NCBI GenBank assembly: GCA_001871075.1
Contig: MNUP01000021.1
Location: 1 to 9,927, forward strand
DNA: 9,927 nt
Source of the DNA: Candidatus Desantisbacteria bacterium CG1_02_49_89
Lineage (GTDB): Bacteria; Desantisbacteria; UBA1551
Direction of reading: 5' to 3'
The translations under genes were made by a program, and so were the position numbers. This document shows, one piece after another, positions 4,722-9,040 of this stretch. The notes under the pieces were generated by a model. The model worked only from the letters and a program-made list of their open reading frames with translations. It made no database searches and had not been told where the DNA came from. How positions within the stretch are numbered: the first letter of the stretch is position 1; every line of letters starts with the position of its first letter.

Positions 4722-4745
4722 ACTAACACTAACACTAACACTAAC
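4722..4745. repeat. Tandem hexamer array, ACTAAC x4
   Basis: There are four perfect, contiguous copies of ACTAAC in the 56-base gap between clpC and the TPR gene. One of its reading frames contains TAA stops, consistent with its position outside coding sequence. No terminator, promoter or convincing Shine-Dalgarno is seen in the rest of this gap. It is the shortest unit of the repeat family also seen at 4825, 7396 and 9000. Confidence 0.95.
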
Positions 4746-4767
4746 TCAAACACCTAAAATAAAAACT

Positions 4768-7269
4768 ATGCTTAAAACTCCTATATCTCTAAAACTGTTT
4801 CTTATACTACTCTTATTCTTCCCCTTACACGTTACACGTTACACGTTACACGATAATTTATACGCTCAGGGGATGGCGGAAGAAGACGAGTTCAGCGTTG
4901 CGTACGGCCTTTATGAGAGAGGGCTTTACGAACTTGCGCTTACCCGCCTGCAGGCTTTCAGGGATTCGCATCCCGCGAGTTCCAGGACAGACGATGTTGA
5001 ATTCCTTACGGGCGAGTGTTATTTTAATACGGCGCGTTTCAAGGAAGCGCTTGTTCGTTACGGCATGGTGAGGTCAAAACAATATGAGGAAATTCTCCTG
5101 CTCAGGACCGGGCAGGTTTATTTTTTTCAGGATGAATACGACAGGGCCATATTGAAGCTGCAGGAGGTAATTACCAACTTTCCGAAAGGCAAGGCCGCGG
5201 ACGCCGCCCTGTTTTTCCTCGGCGAATCCTATTATAAAAAGAACGATTTTCTTTCTGCAACAGGTATCTACACCATTCTGATCAAAGAGTATCCCGTATC
5301 GTCCTATCTGGACCAGTGCTATTATTCGCTGGCTTATTGCAGGTTCAGGAGGGGCGACCTTAAGGATGCGCTTGCCAGTCTTGAAAAAATCCTGAAAGAT
5401 TTCCCTGATTCTTCGGTTGCAGCAGAGGCGAAAGTATTGAAAGGCCAGGTCCTGCAGGGCATGGGAGACAACGCGGGAGCAGTCCGTGCTTACAAAGACG
5501 TTCTTGCGTCGTTTTCCGCCGGTGAAAGCGGCGGCGATTTCGTGCTTTACCAGCTTGGAAACGCGTATTACAGCCTGAACGACTGGGCGGGCGCTGAAAC
5601 GGTTTTTCACGCTATCCGCAAGGATTATCCCGGAGGTGAGTTTGTTCCATACGCGGACAAGGGTATAGCGGACTGCTTTTTCAAACGGGGGGATTACGGT
5701 TCAGCGCTGAAACTCTACGGGAAATTTTTAGGCGATTTTCCAGCGCACGACCTTGCGCCGGATGTCAAATACTGGATCGCAGTAACGCTTGACAGGCCGG
5801 GGAAAACAGAGGATGCCGTTTCCGGCTTCAGGAATTTTATAGGGGAATACAGGGGAAAGGGCGTGAGGGATGAGCTCGTGCTTGACGCGTGGCTGCAGAT
5901 CGGCGCAATTTTATACCGGAAGGGCGATTACGCGGGCGCGCGCAACGCTTTCGGCGAAGCGGTTCAGGCGCCGGAAAGGTTCGGCAGCATCAGGCGCGAC
6001 GCGATGCTGGGCATAGCGGACTGTTATATCGCGGAAAAAAAGTACAATATAGGGCTTGAATATTACAGGAAGGCAGTGGAGGAAACCGCCGGCGACACCG
6101 GACAGCCCCAGGTCAAGTACCAGATCGCTTACGCGTATTATAAGCAGGACGATTTCACCCGGGCGGTCCCTCTGTTCCTGGAGATCCTGGAGAATGAAAA
6201 GGCCGTTCCCGCGGAAAAACGCGAGGAGCTGGTTGTAAACACGCTTTACTGGCTGGGGTGGTCGTATTTCAAGCAGGGGAAATTCAGGGATGCAGCCGGA
6301 TCCTTCGGGATGCTTGCCGCCAGGTACCCGTCAGCCGCCCTGCGGTCTGACGCCCTTTACAGGCTGGGAGATTCGATGTATAACCTGGGCGCGTATGATG
6401 AGGCGCGCAAGGCTTATGAATCGGTTCTGCTGTCCGGAGAGCTTGAGGCGGAAGCCCTTTACGCGATAGCGTGCAGCTATTCCATGGACGGCAAGGCCGA
6501 GAGTGCGGTTAAGACCTACAGGGTCGTGATAGAAAAATACCCGCAGAGCGACATGGCGGTTGAATCGGCTTTCAAGATAGCCGAATTTGAGGGCAGAAAG
6601 GGCAATTATGACGAAGCGTCTTCATATTATAATTTCGTGCTTGCCAATTCGCCCCAGAGTTCCTTTGCCGCCAGGGCGCAGATGGGCGTGGCCGGCATAC
6701 TGCTGAAGAAAAAGAAGGCCAGGGACGCTATCGCGGCTTACGCCGAGGTCGCAAAGAAATACCCGCAGGAGGAACGCCTTTGCATGGAATCGGAATTCAG
6801 GACGGGAGTCTGCTACTCGCAGCTTGGGGATACCGGGAGATCCGAAGCTATTTTCAAATCTTTTATCGCTAGATACCCGAACAGCGATTTCCTGCCGGAG
6901 GCAGGCTACAGGCTGGGCCAGATATATTTTGACGCGGGCAGGTACAGAGACGCGCTCCCGTATTTCCAGAAATCAGCTTTACTTTCCCCGAGGCGCAGCG
7001 GAGTGGGTGCGGCTGCGCAGCTGAAAACCGGTGACTGCCTTTTTAATACCGGCAAATATGAAGACGCGACTTCCGAGTACCTGAAGGTTGTAGTGTTGTA
7101 CCCCGGCGTAACCGATATGCACCCTGAGGCCGAATATAAAATGGGTGTATCGCTTCTTATGAGCGGCAAAGCAAAGGAAGCGAAGGAATACCTGAAGAAG
7201 GTGATCGAGAAATACCCGGACTCAAGCTGGTCCGCGGAGGCAAAGAAAGAACTTGGCAGAATACAGTAG
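4768..7269 (+). CDS. Large exported TPR-repeat protein of a Tol/Exb-type locus
   Basis: This 833-residue protein is built almost entirely of tetratricopeptide repeats, roughly 18-20 units, many with the A-x-Y-x-x-(V/I)-(L/I)-x-x-(Y/F)-P ending (for example KDFPDSS, EKYPQSD, ARYPNSD, EKYPDSS). This matches the CpoB/YbgF and outer-membrane lipoprotein style of TPR. The N-terminus is a signal peptide: a basic start, hydrophobic core at about 9-20, then a predicted cleavage after A33 (LYA before QG). Between core and cleavage site is a nine-residue segment LHVTRYTLH encoded by the TTACACG array. ATG 4768 is chosen because it gives the signal peptide, although no Shine-Dalgarno precedes it; the in-frame ATG at 4873 would remove the signal and its G-rich tract is too close. 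The inferred location is the periplasm, acting as a scaffold between the ExbB/ExbD motor and envelope partners. The substrate is unknown. The following gene's frame overlaps or lies very near its end. Confidence 0.85.
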   Translation: MLKTPISLKLFLILLLFFPLHVTRYTLHDNLYAQGMAEEDEFSVAYGLYERGLYELALTRLQAFRDSHPASSRTDDVEFLTGECYFNTARFKEALVRYGMVRSKQYEEILLLRTGQVYFFQDEYDRAILKLQEVITNFPKGKAADAALFFLGESYYKKNDFLSATGIYTILIKEYPVSSYLDQCYYSLAYCRFRRGDLKDALASLEKILKDFPDSSVAAEAKVLKGQVLQGMGDNAGAVRAYKDVLASFSAGESGGDFVLYQLGNAYYSLNDWAGAETVFHAIRKDYPGGEFVPYADKGIADCFFKRGDYGSALKLYGKFLGDFPAHDLAPDVKYWIAVTLDRPGKTEDAVSGFRNFIGEYRGKGVRDELVLDAWLQIGAILYRKGDYAGARNAFGEAVQAPERFGSIRRDAMLGIADCYIAEKKYNIGLEYYRKAVEETAGDTGQPQVKYQIAYAYYKQDDFTRAVPLFLEILENEKAVPAEKREELVVNTLYWLGWSYFKQGKFRDAAGSFGMLAARYPSAALRSDALYRLGDSMYNLGAYDEARKAYESVLLSGELEAEALYAIACSYSMDGKAESAVKTYRVVIEKYPQSDMAVESAFKIAEFEGRKGNYDEASSYYNFVLANSPQSSFAARAQMGVAGILLKKKKARDAIAAYAEVAKKYPQEERLCMESEFRTGVCYSQLGDTGRSEAIFKSFIARYPNSDFLPEAGYRLGQIYFDAGRYRDALPYFQKSALLSPRRSGVGAAAQLKTGDCLFNTGKYEDATSEYLKVVVLYPGVTDMHPEAEYKMGVSLLMSGKAKEAKEYLKKVIEKYPDSSWSAEAKKELGRIQ
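4825..4852. repeat. Tandem heptamer array, TTACACG x4, inside the signal peptide of the TPR gene
   Basis: There are four perfect contiguous copies, in coding sequence, specifying L20 to H28 plus the first base of the next codon. The heptamer is open in all three forward frames and always yields the cyclic peptide LHVTRYT. A near-identical array lies at 7396-7423 in the next gene. Confidence 0.97.
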
Positions 7270-8947
7270 CAGGGAGGCAGCCATAAAGACAGTGTCAGAG
7301 TGTCCCGCCTCATCGGCGGGTCGCCGCAGGGGCGACCAGTGTCCAGTTTCCAGTTTAACCCTAAAATTCTTTTTAATAACTTTTTTAATCCTGCCTTACA
7401 CGTTACACGTTGCACGTTACACGGGTTTCGCGGACGAGCCGATAATCCTGCCGCCGGTCACGATCACGGGCCAGGATAAGTCAACAGACCTGTTCGACAA
7501 ACCGGTAAAGAGTCCGAGGCCCGCGGCAAAAAATCTCCTGCCCAAGGGCTCCATGGCAAAGGAACAGCAGGCAAGCGCGTCCTTTTTCACGATAGGCCTT
7601 TACGGCGGGGGATATGATTACCTTGAATGGAAGGTGACCGGGGGGAGGCAGGCCGGAATAGGTTTCCTGCTGCTGCTGGACAGGATAAAAACAGGAGACT
7701 ACGGGGTAAACTCAAGGCTGCAGAATTACTCCGCGGATAACTTCAACGCTGATTTCTCGGTTCCGTTTTTTCTGAAATCGTCGATCTTTTCCTCGCTTAA
7801 ATACTATGACAGGAATGAAGGCCTGACGCACCCGGCTCTGCTTGCCGCAGGTGGCAACATTCTCAACCACTGGACAAGGAACGCTGACGTGCGGATCGGC
7901 TGGAAGGGGAATTTCGGGAATCTGTCGATCATCTTTACCCCAGGGTATTCATCGGCTTACATCAACGACAGGATGCCAAACGTCAATACTGCGGTTCTTC
8001 CGGCTGCCACGGCCGAGGAAGTCAGGGGCGGCGCAAAGCTGGGTATAAGCGCGCAGTTTACCGACCACGCGGTCGCAGGCGAAGTGCAGTATGAATACGA
8101 GGAAAGGAAAAGCCTGTCCCGGTCCGGAGGCAATTTCAGCCTTTCAGTTGAAGACAAATTCAGGATAGCCGGGATCCCGGAATGGCGGTTCAGGGCAGCC
8201 GCCAGGTATCTGCGGCCTTACAGGTTCATCGACCAGTTTATCCTGAACCCGGAAGTTGATGTTTCCTGCGAGATGAAAAACGGCATGACAATGGACGCGG
8301 GTTTCAGGAGGACAAGCGTTCTTCCCGGTTACGCGATGTTCCTGGGGAATTTCACGCAGTTCAACCCGGGCCTGGGCATGGAGCATTCCTGGGACATTAA
8401 CGCGGGGGTAAGAGGCAGGTTCAACTCATCAGATGGGAAGTTCAGCGGTTTCTGGGACGCCGGGTTTTACTTCAGGATAATCCAGGATTTCATTGCATAC
8501 GGCGATACGGATACTCTCTGGCAGCCGTTCAATATTCCTCTTGTAACCCATTTCGGGCCTGCCGGGAACATTGGGGTAAGGTACCAGCTTTTCGGGGGCG
8601 ATATTGTGGGAAAGGCAGGTTTCACTCACCGGGAGATAGTATCAAGCGAAATGCACGTTCCCTATCTTGCCAGGGACGAGTTCACGTACAGCATCGGTTA
8701 TGAAATAGGCAGGTTCGAAATGCAAGTTGCGGGAAACTACAGGGGTCCGGTGTATTCCGACACCCAGACCAACGCGAGGGAAATACCGGGCTATTTCATG
8801 ACGGGCCTTAATACCGCTTTTAACGCCGGCGACGGAATAAGATTGTATTTTAATATTGAAAACCTTGCCGATGTTTTTTACGAATCAATGAGTGAATACC
8901 CCTGCAGGGGAAGGAACTTCAGGGGCGGAGTCGAGCTAAAATTCTAA
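7253..8947 (+). CDS. Plug-less TonB-dependent-receptor-like outer-membrane beta-barrel protein
   Basis: The C-terminal part reads as an outer-membrane barrel: alternating aromatic and polar strands throughout, a closing segment LYFNIENLADVFYE typical of the last TonB-receptor strands, a Y/PGRNF-like turn, and a terminal Phe (VELKF) as recognised by the BAM machinery. After a predicted cleavage behind A60 comes a TonB-box-like VTITG (69-73) in a short Pro-rich linker, then the barrel begins near residue 95. The roughly 130-150-residue plug domain of true receptors is absent. The start is uncertain. TTG 7253 overlaps the TPR gene by 17 bases and gives a 36-residue n-region encoded partly by repeats. 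GTG 7292 is an alternative. The best Shine-Dalgarno (7271-7277) faces an in-frame ATA at 7283 that begins Ile-Lys-Thr. The hydrophobic core is at 37-48. By context it is the outer-membrane partner of the downstream ExbB/ExbD motor; the ligand is unknown. Confidence 0.72.
   Translation: MAEYSSREAAIKTVSECPASSAGRRRGDQCPVSSLTLKFFLITFLILPYTLHVARYTGFADEPIILPPVTITGQDKSTDLFDKPVKSPRPAAKNLLPKGSMAKEQQASASFFTIGLYGGGYDYLEWKVTGGRQAGIGFLLLLDRIKTGDYGVNSRLQNYSADNFNADFSVPFFLKSSIFSSLKYYDRNEGLTHPALLAAGGNILNHWTRNADVRIGWKGNFGNLSIIFTPGYSSAYINDRMPNVNTAVLPAATAEEVRGGAKLGISAQFTDHAVAGEVQYEYEERKSLSRSGGNFSLSVEDKFRIAGIPEWRFRAAARYLRPYRFIDQFILNPEVDVSCEMKNGMTMDAGFRRTSVLPGYAMFLGNFTQFNPGLGMEHSWDINAGVRGRFNSSDGKFSGFWDAGFYFRIIQDFIAYGDTDTLWQPFNIPLVTHFGPAGNIGVRYQLFGGDIVGKAGFTHREIVSSEMHVPYLARDEFTYSIGYEIGRFEMQVAGNYRGPVYSDTQTNAREIPGYFMTGLNTAFNAGDGIRLYFNIENLADVFYESMSEYPCRGRNFRGGVELKF
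7271..7277 (+). promoter_or_regulatory. Strong Shine-Dalgarno facing an ATA codon
   Basis: AGGGAGG is five bases before the in-frame ATA at 7283-7285, followed by AAG ACA. The geometry matches that of exbB (GGGAGG then five bases then ATG). It is too far from GTG 7292 (14 bases) to be ideal for it and lies downstream of TTG 7253. This leaves the barrel gene's initiation codon unresolved. Confidence 0.6.
7291..7356. repeat. Mixed repeat block in the start region of the barrel gene
   Basis: The block holds, in order: two octamers AGTGTCAG and AGTGTCCC (7291-7306); two adjoining perfect hairpins, CCCGCC/GGCGGG with a five-base loop (7304-7320) and TCGCC/GGCGA with a five-base loop (7321-7335); and a heptamer array CCAGTGT, CCAGTTT, CCAGTTT (7336-7356). 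All lie in frame in the extended N-terminus of the barrel protein. Neither hairpin is followed by a T-tract, so they are not terminators. Confidence 0.85.
7396..7423. repeat. Tandem heptamer array, TTACACG x4 (one mismatch), inside the barrel signal peptide
   Basis: There are four contiguous copies, the third being TTGCACG. It encodes YTLHVARYT (residues 49-57 from TTG 7253), between the hydrophobic core and the predicted cleavage site GFA. The codon phase differs from the array at 4825, yet the peptide is the same because seven is coprime to three. Confidence 0.96.
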
Positions 8948-8952
8948 AAGCG

Positions 8953-9031
8953 TATCAGAGTATCAACGTATCAGCGTGTCAGAGTTACTGCTTTAAACTT
9001 TGACACGTTGACACTTTGACACGTTGACACG
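8953..9031. repeat. Head-to-head octamer arrays between the barrel gene and exbB
   Basis: Four degenerate octamers (TATCAGAG, TATCAACG, TATCAGCG, TGTCAGAG; 8953-8984) are followed by a 15-base spacer and four octamers TTGACACG, TTGACACT, TTGACACG, TTGACACG (9000-9031). Read on the opposite strand the second set is CGTGTCAA, a close relative of the first set, so the arrays face each other. The inner units form a twelve-base-pair stem (8975-8986 with 8996-9007, one G-U pair, nine-base loop). No T-tract follows, so no terminator is called. Confidence 0.9.
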
Positions 9032-9040
9032 TTATTTTGA

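Follow-up and report, generated by a model that had tools for sequence, protein, structure and literature searches.

Short tandem arrays in signal peptides of a Candidatus Desantisbacteria genome: probable products of array turnover in weakly constrained DNA

We analysed a 9,927-nucleotide stretch of DNA from Candidatus Desantisbacteria bacterium CG1_02_49_89 (the window, by which the whole stretch is meant). The two TTACACG arrays that it carries in the signal-peptide code of neighbouring genes appear to belong to a large population of short arrays specific to this lineage, with a period of 7 and also of 8–10 nt, a length of about 31 nt and many different units. In this genome, arrays recur in one slot of the signal peptide, exchange units between paralogues and orthologues, show a sharp length mode, are present in loops of mature proteins and are scarce in constrained coding DNA. 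The explanation that we consider probable is that a lineage-specific turnover of short arrays writes into weakly constrained DNA, of which signal peptides are the most permissive coding part. The disposable export tags appear to be places where repeat DNA is tolerated when it lands, rather than a special repeat-coded signal.

The preliminary description of the window gave four TTACACG units in both genes. Read from the window sequence, this is correct for the first array, all units of which are perfect, and incorrect for the second, which reads TTACACG TTACACG TTGCACG TTACACG, three exact units and one variant (Table 1). TTACACG dimers with up to two mismatches were observed six times in the window against 0.01 expected, a count reached in none of 200 shuffles. 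The host genes encode a TPR protein (PF13174) and a TonB-dependent-receptor-like barrel (PF00593, E 3e-9); as had been claimed, the two proteins are unrelated, so no gene duplication is involved. The genes are adjacent, and their order is identical in G001, the sole same-order relative compared. Signal peptides were called by a rule-based script of our own that scores n-, h- and c-region features, rather than by SignalP, and on this reading the leaders have a basic n-region, a hydrophobic core and a −3/−1 cleavage motif. The TPR leader, MLKTPISLKLFLILLLFFP-LHVTRYTLHD-NLYA↓QG from the ATG at 4768 (the arrow marks predicted cleavage), is a clear signal peptide by its sequence features. The barrel leader ends in LKFFLITFLIL-PYTLHVARYT-GFA↓DEP; its ORF has no ATG upstream of the array, the candidate starts being TTG 7253 and GTG 7292, and its N-terminus is uncertain. 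In both leaders, in agreement with the first reading, the hydrophobic core precedes the array and the predicted cleavage site follows it. That the array adds residues holds for the TPR signal peptide, which is about 11 residues longer than that of G001, but not for the barrel, where the stretch that runs from LK up to the mature start has 25 residues in both genomes, so that the array replaces sequence there.

Table 1 Features in and around the two array-bearing genes (window positions; ↓, predicted cleavage site)
Feature	Position	Strand	Basis
ACTAAC hexamer array, 5′ leader of TPR gene	4722..4753	+	
TPR-repeat exported protein gene, 833 aa from ATG	4768..7269	+	ORF; TPR_6 E 2e-90; G001 orthologue next to barrel gene
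Predicted signal peptide of TPR protein, MLKTPISLKLFLILLLFFPLHVTRYTLHDNLYA↓QG	4768..4866	+	Sequence features; G001 orthologue MLKIFLVVFFVTQYISCDFLFA↓QL, same place
TTACACG x4, perfect, c-region of TPR signal peptide	4825..4852	+	
Outer-membrane beta-barrel (TonB-dependent-receptor-like) gene, start TTG 7253 or GTG 7292	7253..8947	+	ORF; PF00593
Predicted leader and signal peptide of barrel, given GTG 7292 start; cleavage ...GFA↓DEP	7292..7432	+	
Two GC-rich inverted repeats (CCCGCCTCATCGGCGGG, TCGCCGCAGGGGCGA), barrel leader	7304..7335	+	Read from sequence
Second heptamer array, CCAGTTT x3, n-region coding part of barrel leader	7336..7356	+	
TTACACG array with TTGCACG as unit 3, c-region of barrel signal peptide	7396..7423	+	
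Two octamer arrays, GTATCAGA (8952–8985) and TTGACACG (9000–9033), between barrel and exbB-like genes	8952..9033	.	Short-array class like the heptamers

The window contains further repeats. The two octamer arrays form an inverted pair with 41-nt arms that are 76% complementary, and an intergenic repeat-like stretch of the type GTCATTGCGAACGAACGAAGTGAG...GCAATCT lies at 2040–2225. A structured-RNA reading of the barrel leader was ruled out, the RNA fold of the whole leader being no better than that of shuffles (z −0.5).

A 462-kb sample of the same genome, chosen without regard to arrays (L093–L112 and L146–L165), held 91 period-7 arrays (about 20 per 100 kb), 79 of them non-coding, and Markov shuffles gave none. 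Arrays of periods 8, 9, 10 and 14 were also present. Array length had a sharp mode at 31 nt (four units plus 3 nt), and the period-7 units were diverse, including AATTATG, CGTCGTA, AGTAACA, CTTTCAG, ACGACGC and others. G001 had one period-7 array in 158 kb and three unrelated genomes had none in 400 kb. A period-7 array was present in 7 of 77 signal-peptide segments, each defined as the 75 nt that begin with the hydrophobic core, versus 3 of 849 segments from the interior of coding sequences (odds ratio 28, Fisher p 2e-6). Periods 5, 6 and 8–11 gave no array in the signal-peptide segments of this sample, and no lag-7 array was found in 61 signal-peptide segments of the three unrelated genomes. 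Intergenic DNA held about 1.5 arrays per kb; genes held 0.37 per kb over their final 45 nt, 0.22 over their initial 90 nt and 0.04 in the interior. An inverted partner, giving a long hairpin, accompanied 22 of 170 arrays of all kinds (control 0); AATTATG/TCATAAT pairs with loops of about 45 bp lie at L098:19576-19678, L152:442-544, L159:14937-15034, L164:12392-12479 and elsewhere.

The exact TTACACG dimer occurs 41 times on the two strands of the 2.48-Mb genome (reversed control 0) and nowhere in 58 other genomes, which rules out TTACACG as a unit common to relatives. Delimited at 3 mismatches per 21 bp, the family comprises about 41 arrays (a little over 40 non-overlapping), each of which was read in its context. 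Array-bearing leaders were read by extending frames upstream, because the arrays lower the codon score and such signal peptides escape gene calling. Seventeen arrays lie in sense orientation within signal peptides of largely unrelated proteins, all in frame with the protein and with frames 0, 1 and 2 of the heptamer all used. Nearly all follow directly on the hydrophobic core, 3–4 codons ahead of a plausible cleavage site, as in MKYKKILSILLLLLA-LHVTRDTLHV-CYA↓SF, MKRLRQYFLLGLLF-FTLHVTRYT-AFA↓EG and MLRHRKFLPILFLIFCFS-ITRYTLHVTR-ICSA↓AD; in one of them, an ApbE lipoprotein, the array stands before the lipobox, inside the core itself. The hosts include PorV-like barrels, OmpA-type, HtrA, SurA-like, ApbE, CBM9, CHU_C-type and radical-SAM proteins. 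Giant surface proteins, one of which has Ig-like and lectin domains, carry four further copies, and GcpE contains one. With 17 of the 22 coding copies in signal peptides, the peptide cycle is not found mostly inside mature domains here, the outcome that the preliminary description had named as telling against it. Against some 20 non-coding copies, the 17 signal-peptide copies compare with about 2 expected by target size, and the density of TTACACG in signal peptides is about 14 times its non-coding density.

The heptamer is, as had been stated, free of stops in all three forward frames and encodes the LHVTRYT cycle, the reverse strand having stops in every frame. This property is weak evidence, since on any one strand 69% of all heptamers lack stops. 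Units with a stop (TAACACG, TGACACG and similar), counted over all four-unit TTACACG arrays including the non-coding copies, are confined to units 2 and 3 (14 of 50 versus 0 of 50 in units 1 and 4).

Some TTACACG copies stand within larger structures. Four are part of a longer hairpin-bearing element, TTATCCG-CCCCGAT...ATCGGGG-CGAGACCTCGCCC. A dispersed two-hairpin element of the form TTACACG..TTATCCGCCCCGATnnnATCGGGGCGAGACCTCGCCC..GGGCACCTTACAC was seen at L065:4005, L068:4034, L072:2598 and L079:3886, and a related hairpin lies in the leader of the PorV paralogue L131. At L074:3952-4207, directly past a stop codon, are four tandem 57- to 64-bp copies of a T-rich stretch plus TTACACG array. 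A viral origin was not supported by any exact 21-mer in viral contigs and was set aside. Spread of leaders by gene duplication or signal-peptide swapping was likewise discarded, as the leaders of unrelated hosts share upstream only T-richness and a few bases.

Comparison of paralogues and orthologues revealed that the slot is filled by different units. Besides TTACACG, the heptamers CTTTCAN, TAACTTG, TTTAACC and CTCTTCA were found in it. The PorV-like protein L113 has TTACACS x4, and in L115, which is 88% identical to it over the mature region, the slot holds CTTTCAN x4; L117 has CTTTCAN together with a CTCTGTGTC-type repeat in the core, L136 has TAACTTG and L137 has CTTTCAC, and further paralogues have no array. 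About 10 of the genome's 18 PorV paralogues with a complete N-terminus have one of three unit types; no array above threshold was found in the PorV copies of G001. The leader of L113 is no longer than that of L115, and that of the barrel does not exceed its G001 counterpart in length, so that arrays replace as well as add sequence. In G001, the signal peptide of the SurA-like orthologue is built from GTCATCT-like units, about eight in number, a pattern reached by none of 2000 shuffles, and the barrel orthologue tentatively has a repeated AACCCGGCAAC in the slot; no G001 orthologue of the BatD-like gene L063 was found. In our reading, the units of L154 and L163 deviate exactly where an in-frame stop would arise (TAACTTG to TCACTTG, TTTAACC to TTCAACC), a change expected from coding constraint on an otherwise arbitrary sequence. 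The earlier suggestion that the array might be selected in signal peptides found no evidence favouring TTACACG: paralogues and orthologues have other heptamers in this position, and the array density in signal peptides (about 1.2 per kb) is close to the intergenic one.

Arrays are also kept in mature proteins. LeuRS has two different heptamer arrays, CAGTGTC at L148:11271-11301 and ATCCAGG at L148:11674-11707, both in the editing domain. One array lies in mature aconitase, and others in radical-SAM and MFS proteins; those of LeuRS and aconitase are located in loops whose length and sequence differ across all the genomes aligned. The proposal that arrays are tolerated only where the product is discarded after cleavage is thus borne out by the signal-peptide excess and too narrow in its "only": the rule would be low constraint, with the discarded leader as the strongest coding case. 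Among 84,980 species, TTACACG was found in 30 stretches; these come from many phyla and lie chiefly between genes or within mature ORFs. In Patescibacteria, such arrays lie inside genes for TIM, peptidyl-tRNA hydrolase and a glycosyltransferase, and one is in a prepilin leader. Candidatus Tritonobacter lacicola (Auribacterota; L039, L053), with TTACACG runs mixed with CATCTTG/TTTCTTG heptamers, is a second array-rich lineage.

Taking these data together, we infer that tolerance is the reason for the distribution, that array-bearing signal peptides are functional and that local slippage or copying is the source of the arrays. Arrays would appear and turn over in weakly constrained DNA, with intergenic DNA as their main home; they would form or be copied locally, and selection would leave those that preserve the frame and a workable leader. 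Within genes, they would survive where the demands on sequence are slight, almost anything stop-free, non-acidic and moderately hydrophobic being good enough: mostly at the end of the h-region and in the c-region of signal peptides, and less often in surface loops that are hypervariable and at the ends of proteins. Signal peptides would use the array as filler between the hydrophobic core and the −3/−1 cleavage residues, where it either replaces part of a signal peptide of normal size or makes it longer, by anything from a few residues to about 11. TTACACG may be common there because, on that strand, it is stop-free in every frame and its cycle includes one Arg but nothing acidic, and because it belongs to a dispersed motif found behind T-rich DNA, the DNA of a hydrophobic core being likewise T-rich. 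Three results count against this explanation. The 14-fold excess of TTACACG in signal peptides is more than plain tolerance predicts, unless the unit has a target or survival bias; the limitation of stop-bearing units to positions 2 and 3 is not explained by tolerance; and the sequence to the left of the array is similar in copies outside signal peptides.

These points bear on a first alternative, namely that TTACACG array and T-rich left flank together form a defined, dispersed mobile element of about 45 bp, sometimes an inverted pair, that targets T-rich DNA, including signal-peptide cores, and supplies part of the export tag. The T fraction of the left flank is 0.50 in signal-peptide copies and 0.41 in other copies against 0.29 in intergenic DNA, and CTTGCC or TTTCCC precedes unit 1 in both classes; the presence of these features in copies outside signal peptides suggests a defined element with an insertion preference rather than blind slippage. 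Inverted pairs with short AT-rich spacers occur in L081 and L084, nine copies lie 0–8 bp past the stop codon of a convergent gene, all antisense and so with the strand that has stops in every frame, and the unit number is nearly constant at four. However, other heptamers fill the same signal-peptide slot, a plain insertion of 28 nt, which is not a multiple of 3, would shift the frame, and in the barrel and PorV leaders sequence is replaced without net gain in length. No transposase link was found, in a search that was not in depth. Neither was a conserved body with terminal inverted repeats, as in MITE/RPE-like elements: the signal-peptide copies have in common the array, a few flanking bases and T-richness, and nothing beyond. 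Inverted pairs are a minority of the non-coding TTACACG copies, and nearly all signal-peptide copies have no inverted partner (the exception, L062, has an inverted array 91 bp upstream). We regard a mobile element as somewhat unlikely. A different extension of short-array turnover, which we put forward tentatively and hold to be rather unlikely, is an active process that inserts arrays of about 31 nt, with a fixed length but an arbitrary unit of 7–10 nt, wherever DNA is free of constraint, and later overwrites them where they stand. Orthologues would then have their signal peptides remade time and again from different repeat units, by an array-forming activity that is dedicated or unusual and distinct from ordinary slippage.

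The arrays could also be nucleic-acid sites bound by a translational or transcriptional regulator close to gene ends, a role that has been proposed for the TAACTGA repeats of Beggiatoaceae (MacGregor, 2015; PMC4679880). The strong concentration at gene edges and the long hairpins of some arrays would fit such a role, but the many arrays have unrelated units, and their positions range from upstream of starts, through signal peptides, to past stops, which makes it very unlikely.

Phase variation, in which gain or loss of 7-nt units in signal-peptide code would switch an exported protein on and off, is highly improbable as well. The precedent is Neisseria opa, where CTCTT repeats in the signal-peptide code, in arrays that are long, perfect and variable in number, cause on/off switching. 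As in opa, the tandem repeat has a unit that is not a multiple of 3 and lies inside the signal-peptide code of surface proteins. Unlike in opa, there are almost always exactly four units here, usually imperfect, which should suppress slippage, and no long, near-perfect array with a unit number varying between genes was seen across the approximately 41 arrays. In addition, all signal-peptide copies are in frame, the array class is commoner in non-coding DNA, and arrays are also present in housekeeping-type genes (HtrA, SurA-like). Although the 17 exported hosts are largely unrelated and place the array at a near-equal distance from the predicted cleavage site, it is scarcely credible that LHVTRYT itself is a selected export or sorting signal, given that three frames are used, with a peptide phase that differs between genes relative to that site, that paralogues have other peptides (TFTFQLSALSL, LTCNLSLVTC) in the slot and that the same DNA occurs in non-coding positions and mature loops.

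Dispersed heptamer repeats are known from several bacteria. The GGGNATC repeats of Xanthomonas and Nostoc are one family of G-rich units, explained by G-quadruplexes (Rehm, 2015; PMC4692102). Like these and the cyanobacterial STRR, the arrays described here have a 7-nt unit, are dispersed and mostly non-coding, prefer four units and lie near ORF ends with strand polarity; their non-coding share, their absence from shuffles and the 31-nt mode place them with heptameric SSRs of the Rehm, MacGregor and STRR type. Unlike the GGGNATC repeats, they have many unrelated units, a length near 31 nt and a recurrent place in signal peptides, and runs of at least three G per unit are absent from TTACACG/CGTGTAA and from nearly all the units listed. 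The TAACTGA repeats of marine Beggiatoaceae (PMC4679880) are likewise dispersed heptamers, with 2–6 units, near gene edges and in the stop-free orientation in ORFs, where coding copies were noted mostly at protein peripheries. In contrast to the arrays studied here, they have a single unit and lie mostly just upstream of start codons, and the sections of that report consulted make no link to signal peptides. Repeat DNA within coding sequence has precedents as well. In YPO1552, the predicted signal peptide is encoded in part by the enterobacterial RU-2/YPAL repeat (Delihas, 2007; PMC2759123, PMC2229807), but this is a 168-bp MITE-like sequence in one protein, whereas here short tandem arrays occupy many signal peptides of one genome, with units differing between paralogues. 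Rickettsia palindromic elements, palindromes of 105–146 bp, are similarly tolerated in frame in many coding genes, conserved enzymes included (PMC2229807); the present arrays differ in being about 31 nt long and in having signal peptides as their main coding site.

In summary, dispersed four-unit heptamers and repeat-derived coding inserts are already known; in the literature, we did not find a description of one genome in which many signal peptides carry short arrays with paralogues differing in unit, and this recurrent occupation is apparently undescribed. Close paralogues with different repeat-coded peptides in one slot offer a natural experiment on how little the sequence of a signal peptide matters. 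Turnover of short arrays can, on this evidence, remodel coding DNA, and the origin of the 31-nt array length becomes testable by comparison of related strains.
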